From: Bacillota bacterium
Lineage (GTDB): Bacteria > Bacillota_I > Bacilli_A > Erysipelotrichales > Erysipelotrichaceae
DNA: 36,662 bases
Assembly (NCBI GenBank): GCA_023249475.1
Contig: JAHFCO010000024.1
Span: 1-36,662 of the forward strand
Direction of reading: 5' to 3'
The translations under genes and the position numbers were made by a program. The notes beneath the pieces were generated by a model. The model was not told the DNA's origin, ran no database searches, and worked only from the letters and a program-made list of their open reading frames with translations. Shown in pieces: positions 20,803 through 22,006 of this stretch (position 1 is its first letter; every line of letters begins with the position of its first letter).

Positions 20803-21444
20803 ATGAAAAACAAATCAAGAGTCACACGATTCTTGCTGATCGGTGTCGTCATCGCAGGGTTGGCGGGATGCGCGATCGCCAATCCATGGAGTCAATCCAA
20901 TGACGTCGGCAAAGGTCGATCCGACTGGAACACCGCTCGAGGATACCAGCAATCCACCGCGAATCCGCTGGACAACCCGACCTATCCGCAACCCAGCGTG
21001 ACTTACGACGAAAGTTCTTATACGATCGAAGAGATGCTGACGATGGCAATCCAGGACGAAACCCTGGCACGCCAGGAATATGAAAGCATCCTCGAGGAAT
21101 ACGGCGACATCCGTCCGTTCACCAACATCATCCAAGCCGAGGTCAAGCACATCGAAATGCTGGAACCGTTATTCGCAGCCTATAAGATAACGATACCGGA
21201 AGACGATGCGATCGACCACGTCGTACTACCGGAGACGTTGGAAGAAAGCTATGCGATCGGCGTGCAGGCCGAAGTCAACAACATCGCGATGTATGAAAGG
21301 TTCCTCGAAGAAGACGTGCCGGAAGATGTCCAAGACGTTTTCCAACGCTTGATGAGCGATTCCTACAAGCATCTTGAAGCGTTCGCGCGGCACGTCGAAG
21401 GGAATTCGGGAAGAAACGGCCGTTCAAACGGCAGATCCTCGTAA
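20803..21444 (+). CDS. Ferritin-like DUF2202-type lipoprotein
   Basis: A 213-residue lipoprotein with signal peptide and perfect lipobox LAGC (Cys23), a Ser/Pro-rich linker (24-70) and a four-helix ferritin-like domain (about 72-200). Candidate di-iron ligands are Glu86 (QDETLARQEYE), Glu113 and His116 (EVKHIE), Glu157 (QAEVNNIAMYE) and His190 (YKHLEAF). This pattern fits the DUF2202 family; the chemistry, such as metal storage or peroxide or oxygen reduction, is unproven. It ends in a Gly/Arg/Ser-rich tail. AAGGAG supports the start. The cell-surface location and an operator-like palindrome upstream suggest a stress- or metal-regulated role. Confidence 0.8.
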   Translation: MKNKSRVTRFLLIGVVIAGLAGCAIANPWSQSNDVGKGRSDWNTARGYQQSTANPLDNPTYPQPSVTYDESSYTIEEMLTMAIQDETLARQEYESILEEYGDIRPFTNIIQAEVKHIEMLEPLFAAYKITIPEDDAIDHVVLPETLEESYAIGVQAEVNNIAMYERFLEEDVPEDVQDVFQRLMSDSYKHLEAFARHVEGNSGRNGRSNGRSS

Positions 21445-21451
21445 AAAGCGC

Positions 21452-21480
21452 TCGACAAGCCTCTTGTTTTAGGGTATAAT
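21452..21480 (+). promoter_or_regulatory. Promoter P1 upstream of the S10 operon
   Basis: TCGACA at 21452-21457, 17 bases, and a perfect TATAAT at 21475-21480. A terminator follows only about 40 bases after the expected start. Confidence 0.75.
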
Positions 21481-21524
21481 CGACATGTTGCCGCCATAAA
21501 CGGGGCATCGAAACAAACACTCAG

Positions 21525-21553
21525 AAAGTACTTGCAATCGCAGGTACTTTTTT
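21525..21553 (+). terminator. Terminator between the two S10-operon promoters
   Basis: AAAGTACTTGC (21525-21535) pairs with GCAGGTACTTT (21540-21550), 11 bp with one G-T pair and an AATC loop, running into six T. It can end the ferritin-like gene's transcript and also any transcript from P1. Confidence 0.92.
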
Positions 21554-21561
21554 GCTATAAT
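21532..21561 (+). promoter_or_regulatory. Promoter P2 of the S10-spc-alpha operon
   Basis: A consensus extended -10, TGCTATAAT (21553-21561), with TTGCAA at 21532-21537 after 18 bases. The -35 lies in the loop side of the terminator stem, so terminator and promoter overlap. This is the likely main promoter for the 28-gene cluster. Confidence 0.8.
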
Positions 21562-21567
21562 ATACTC

Positions 21568-21672
21568 TGCATCCGCATGGACGTGCGAGGTTGCCGGCAC
21601 ACTGATAAACGTTGTCATGGTCAGTGAGAAGCACGGGGAATTCGCATCGAGCGGGATCGTCACAAGACGATC
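21568..21672 (+). promoter_or_regulatory. Structured leader of the S10 operon
   Basis: The leader before rpsJ folds locally into several hairpins: GTGC and GCAC closing GTGCGAGGTTGCCGGCAC (about 21583-21600), CACTGA/TCAGTG (21600-21626) and GATCGTC/GACGATC with an ACAA loop (21655-21672), the last ending 8 bases before AGGAGG. S10 operons of other bacteria are regulated through such leaders by L4. The regulator is inferred; I could not match a named family. Confidence 0.55.
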
Positions 21673-21694
21673 AATGGATAGGAGGAAGCATTCC

Positions 21695-22006
21695 ATGGCG
21701 AAAAACAGCATTCGTATCCGTCTGAAAGCTTACGAACATCGGGTATTGGACACGGCGACCCAGAAGATCGTCGCGGCCGCCAACGACCACGGTGCCAAGA
21801 AAGTAATCGGACCGGTACCCCTTCCGACCGAGAAACAGGTCGTTACCATCTTACGTGCGGTTCATAAGTACAAGGATTCCCGCGAACAATTCGAAATCAG
21901 AACGCATAAGCGCTTGATCGAAATCGTCGGACCGACTGCGGAAACCATCGACGCGCTTAGCCGTCTCGAGTTACCCAGCGGCGTCGATATCGAAATCAAG
22001 CTTTAG
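21695..22006 (+). CDS. rpsJ: Ribosomal protein S10
   Basis: A 103-residue S10 (also NusE) with the typical [14 protein letters not shown] start, the [10 protein letters not shown] loop and the QFEIRTHKR block. The start at 21695 follows AGGAGG; the frame stays open upstream to 21617 but this lies in the leader. It opens the S10-spc-alpha cluster, and rplC follows 14 bases later. Besides its place in the 30S head, S10 joins the NusB antitermination complex. Confidence 0.98.

Follow-up and report, generated by a model that had tools for sequence, protein, structure and literature searches.

The ribosomal-protein leader (r-leader) of the Firmicutes S10 operon is said to go back to earlier work by Yao in 2007, and Li et al. 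reportedly described in 1997 two promoters of the S10-spc-alpha cluster of Bacillus subtilis, a likeness to the present two-promoter locus that is drawn from the paper's title alone. Small RNAs of the 3'-UTR class have their own promoter and use the terminator of the mRNA. According to PMC7247131, the Firmicutes S10 r-leader had already been established, and that work extends it in Clostridia. Intrinsic terminators that abut or overlap the next promoter are a further point of comparison. A literature search, with subscription papers mostly outside it, turned up no description of an S10 promoter with a terminator inside it.

The leader and the terminator-promoter junction at this locus are known in kind; the point of interest is the predicted nesting of a terminator within the conserved S10 promoter. 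With a probability of roughly 0.78, positions 21523-21561 are read here as a dual-use segment in which the terminator of the upstream unit would be written into the -35 region and spacer of the conserved promoter P2, next to a probably lineage-specific promoter, P1, that would yield an RNA of ~66 nt. As RNA, transcribed by a polymerase that comes from the ferritin-like gene upstream or has started at P1, the segment would fold as a terminator and transcription would end near 21552; as DNA, it would be the promoter that starts the S10 operon and its conserved leader afresh. This stop at the RNA level and fresh start at the DNA level would thus insulate the operon from upstream read-through, with no room needed for a separate terminator. 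The anatomy of the locus, its conservation and recurrence, compensatory changes in the stem and a complementary distribution with separate terminators are observed; promoter activity, termination, insulation and the P1 RNA would follow from them.

The window, meaning the whole stretch of 36,662 nucleotides that was analysed, belongs to a genome of 2.09 Mb in 60 contigs (G000), whose nearest named relatives by S10 are mostly Erysipelotrichaceae. In order, the genes here are fusA, tuf, a HAD hydrolase gene, a ferritin-like gene (20803-21444, + strand; Pfam hits to DUF2202/Rubrerythrin), rpsJ for ribosomal protein S10 as the operon's first gene (21695-22006, + strand; Pfam Ribosomal_S10, E 1.2e-33) and the remaining S10 cluster; the fusA and tuf assignments, like those of the later ribosomal genes, come from reading the translations. 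The ferritin-like gene, which is the upstream unit and codirectional with the operon, lies between the HAD gene and the S10 operon and is 13% diverged in a congener; its translation reads as having a hydrophobic, lipoprotein-like N-terminus. The interval from its stop codon (21444) to rpsJ (21695) contains P1, a hairpin and its T-run, P2 and the leader. The promoter-terminator-promoter order of the original prediction was recovered, with P1 at 21452-21480, the hairpin at 21523-21553 and P2 at 21532-21561. Elsewhere in the window, at 1613-1763, a promoter-like TTGACA-16-TAAAAT with a preceding TG stands directly before an Rfam L10 leader (RF00557, 63.3 bits).

P2 (+ strand) is composed of TTGCAA at 21532-21537, 18 nt and TATAAT at 21556-21561, with an extended -10 TGC at 21553-21555. 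It shows the two hexamers, spaced by 16-18 nt and kept in relatives, of a sigma-70-type promoter, and holds the same position before the leader in those relatives. Of 144 Erysipelotrichales loci in families f1 and f2, 142 allowed placement of P2, the exceptions being a contig that was too short (L198) and a locus where the script misplaced it (L159). Among 138 automatic placements, the distance from the -10 to the leader motif is 25-28 nt at 111 of 114 f1 loci and 28-32 nt at all 24 f2 loci. A P2-type promoter also precedes the leader at 67 of the 69 non-Erysipelotrichales Bacilli and Clostridia loci that match the leader model R1 (L086 and L063 received no P2 call), and the printed examples are mostly TTGCAA or TTGCAT with TATAAT. 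The predicted S10 promoter that is conserved here is P2, not P1.

Downstream of P2, the S10 leader RNA (21564-21697, + strand) reaches up to the rpsJ start codon. An alignment of 70 leaders, one per genus, contains 15 consensus pairs, 10 of them with double changes. R1, a covariance model built from Erysipelotrichales leaders, finds one site just upstream of rpsJ in 73 of 75 sources, with no match in L095 and L106, and also detects leaders of Bacilli and Clostridia; the window scores 97.3 bits, its own leader being among the sequences from which R1 was built. As a structured RNA directly before rpsJ that is homologous with Bacilli leaders, the window leader belongs to the wider Firmicutes S10 class. 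It shares its position, conserved core and pairing with the Rfam family RF03136 (S10-Clostridia) but scores 14 bits against a cut-off of 35.1, and so carries no Rfam annotation; at four other loci, L059 and L066 in Bacilli and L092 and L108 in Clostridia, the same family scores 35.5-39.1 bits. Below that cut-off yet homologous by R1, the leader is therefore known in kind and missed by Rfam here, which means that the S10 leader of Erysipelotrichales lies under the Rfam threshold, at least in the window.

The predicted intrinsic terminator (21523-21553, + strand) is a 13-pair stem (21523-21535 with 21540-21552) around a 4-base loop (21536-21539), with TTTTTT at 21548-21553. Its folding energy of -15.7 kcal/mol (z -5.9) is equalled in 0 of 200 shuffles, and a stable stem-loop followed by a T-run is the form expected of a Rho-independent terminator. 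The P2 -35 overlaps the 5' arm and the loop, which bears out the proposal that P2, with its extended -10, begins inside the terminator. A simple terminator scan omitted the hairpin, presumably because its stem includes the T-run, and scanning from the ferritin-like gene to P2 returned no terminator besides the nested one. The terminator would accordingly serve the codirectional ferritin-like gene, as had been suggested. Hairpin and P2 are identical at 39 of 39 bases in the congeneric genome G001, a pair that offers no stem change to compare for compensation.

The rule for scoring nesting was strict, requiring no fewer than 8 contiguous pairs and 3 G-C, plus a T-run, a 5' arm extending to the -35 and a 3' arm ending before the -10. 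By this rule, 18 of 142 loci, spread over 10 of 70 genera, have a terminator-like hairpin over the P2 -35 and spacer, whereas shuffling flank and spacer separately with composition kept gives an expectation of 0.2 and at most 2 in 200 runs; these counts, like the p values for nesting, ignore shared ancestry. One of the 143 loci scanned, the non-hit L159, has no qualifying hairpin by eye and was set aside to give 142; L174, whose 10-base loop exceeds the limit of 9, was entered as a non-hit, and L032-L037, partly duplicates of other genomes counted, were excluded from the Erysipelotrichales locus counts. A looser energy test gives 10 of 49 at p ≤ 0.01, and a generic scan covering 950 promoter-like sites in an earlier set of the loci returned 12 with such a hairpin, 11 of them near S10 (9 at P2) and 1 elsewhere. 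Congeners show paired changes in the stems, namely one G-C to A-T pair in g2, one in g33, two pairs in g24 and two in g37; the remaining stem differences are one-sided and preserve pairing. The nested hairpin is absent from all 67 other Bacilli and Clostridia loci with P2 (18/143 versus 0/67, p 0.001, ancestry ignored). The predicted nesting is a recurrent variant within Erysipelotrichales. The A-rich flank before the -35 and the T-rich spacer favour pairing, and shuffles that keep this composition do not reproduce the nesting.

Upstream neighbours, called by ORF length, are distributed in a complementary way. The called upstream gene is codirectional at 13 of 13 hairpin loci, none of which (0/13) has a separate terminator; at codirectional loci lacking the hairpin, a separate terminator is found in 50 of 80 (Fisher p 1.4e-5, ancestry ignored). 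With gaps of at most 130 nt the proportions are 0 of 11 and 19 of 29 (p 1.9e-4, ancestry ignored), and the median gap to the upstream gene is 60 nt at hairpin loci and 167.5 nt at the others. At the 34 loci whose neighbour is on the opposite strand, the hairpin is never seen. By scan, 30 of the 80 codirectional non-hairpin loci have neither feature, so a terminator is either not always needed or not always detected.

Two checks for Rfam families, rRNA among them, covered 18 and 20 of the loci. In several sister-family genomes the S10 promoter has a same-strand 5S rRNA gene ahead of it. This is the case at the hairpin loci L118, L121 and L219, where the gene is ~330, 100 and 80 nt from P2, and because it is on the S10 strand, the nested hairpin there may end an rRNA operon. 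At the other two hairpin loci with no called gene, L132 and L187, no tRNA gene was found upstream; among the 13 with a called gene, L115 shows 5S and 23S sequence ~900 nt upstream with a called ORF between. Upstream rRNA is also found without a nested hairpin at L215, L220 and L224, of which L220 and L224 have a separate terminator.

Junctions of a similar kind occur elsewhere in the window's own genome, where 35 distinct sites have five T just before a -10 and 10 of these, P2 included, have a hairpin; nesting or abutting is therefore not unique to S10. Most of these have a weak -35. Of the other hairpin sites, four (L239, L242, L260 and L272) are flanked on either side by called codirectional genes, the downstream gene of L239 beginning 820 nt on, and at the last three a hairpin with its T-run ends just before the -10 between those genes, an arrangement common in this genome. 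Like them, the S10 site has a hairpin and T-run directly ahead of the -10; it differs from terminators that merely abut a promoter in covering a conserved -35 and spacer, and in doing so ahead of one and the same operon across 10 of 70 genera. It is this recurrence that sets S10 apart, at a promoter that is conserved and has a genuine -35.

P1 (+ strand) is a promoter-like TCGACA (21452-21457) and TATAAT (21475-21480) at 17-nt spacing, which begins 8 nt past the last base of the ferritin stop codon and agrees with the consensus at 11 of 12 positions. When 21445-21531 was put through 5000 dinucleotide shuffles, this grade was reached 0 times, and 10/12 in 0.4%; sites of at least 11/12 across the window number 4 on the + strand and 0 on the - strand. 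Both hexamers are identical in G001, the sole other genome of the genus compared. The P1 RNA (21487-21553, + strand) would be ~66 nt long, a length that presumes a start near 21487 and an end at the T-run, and is predicted to form two independent hairpins, one small and at the 5' end, the other being the terminator; no alternative fold is seen. Given that fold and a promoter kept at the genus level, P1 would most likely give a short RNA ending at the shared terminator, in keeping with the expectation that its transcripts should stop after ~66 nt. As a promoter, P1 is probably genuine, though specific to this lineage. By anatomy alone, a promoter just past the stop codon that uses the ferritin-like gene's terminator fits the 3'-UTR class of small RNAs; the body of the predicted RNA is not well conserved.

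Alternatively, P1 could be a chance look-alike that gives no transcript, with only the nested terminator and P2 real. No upstream promoter-like site of 11/12 was found in other Erysipelotrichales genera (141 loci scanned), and the 6 substitutions separating G001 from the window across 21445-21522, all outside the 12 hexamer bases of P1, are not significant (chance ~1/3), both of which suit a coincidence. The 11/12 match with its perfect TATAAT, unequalled in the shuffles, and its retention in the congener argue the other way, and we regard coincidence as a real but somewhat doubtful possibility. Conservation of the two promoters in relatives, on which the original prediction had set store, holds for P2 and, for P1, in the only congener, and fails for P1 in other genera. 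A conserved family-wide upstream P1 was rejected, sites of at least 10/12 occurring at 14 of 141 loci versus 8.4 ± 2.8 in shuffles. At L017, a second promoter-like TTTACA-16-TAAAAT lies ~80 nt upstream of the P2 -35, a spacing close to that of P1 in the window; an imperfect hairpin that carries a T-run overlaps this site.

Two other roles considered for the P1 RNA were rejected. Its blocks GTTGCCG, ATAAAC, GGG and GCATCGA (21481-21522) occur in the same order in the leader (21564-21694), not clearly above chance; taken as a decoy or incomplete copy of the leader, the RNA is equalled by 2.3% of shuffles and by 4.9% of window 42-mers. As an antisense RNA to the leader it is matched in pairing by 92% of shuffles. 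The small frame ATGTTGCCGCCATAA from 21485, considered as a leader peptide, opens ahead of the expected RNA start.

A more ambitious idea, which we think improbable, makes the superposition a control device: a polymerase from the ferritin-like gene, an rRNA operon or P1 would pause or be released on the P2 core, transiently covering and tuning the S10 promoter and coupling ribosomal-protein synthesis to the neighbour, with P1 added in the genus to set the brake. Less likely still is an attenuator, in which P1 would be a regulated S10 promoter whose leader RNA toggles between the terminator and an antiterminated state. P1, terminator and operon do stand in the right order for it. However, forbidding the terminator stem makes the fold of the P1 RNA 15.7 kcal/mol worse and leaves the terminator 5' arm unpaired, so no competing antiterminator is seen; folding of the P1 transcript thus lacks the mutually exclusive structure that marks a transcription attenuator. 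In addition, the operon would start afresh at P2 further downstream, P1 is confined to the genus, and in the congener the RNA body has changed at 4 of 42 bases versus 0 of 39 for hairpin and P2. The earlier suggestion of an attenuated leader reading into the ribosomal cluster under antitermination is thus not sustained, P2 being the conserved S10 promoter that would feed the known leader. Repressor sites commonly lie over the -35 and spacer, and the inverted repeat sits just there, yet the reading that a dimeric repressor of P2 uses it as its operator, with terminator likeness incidental, is the least probable of all, because the stems differ in sequence from species to species whereas position and T-run are retained, and because the hairpin alternates with separate terminators.

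Read as a terminator written into P2, the segment is a natural case in which one sequence of ~40 bp must satisfy both promoter and terminator, in many genera and before the same essential operon. Given this dual constraint, the compensatory changes and the alternation with ordinary terminators, it may be used to test how termination and initiation share sequence, and the nested element suggests that compact insulator-promoters of this kind may exist.
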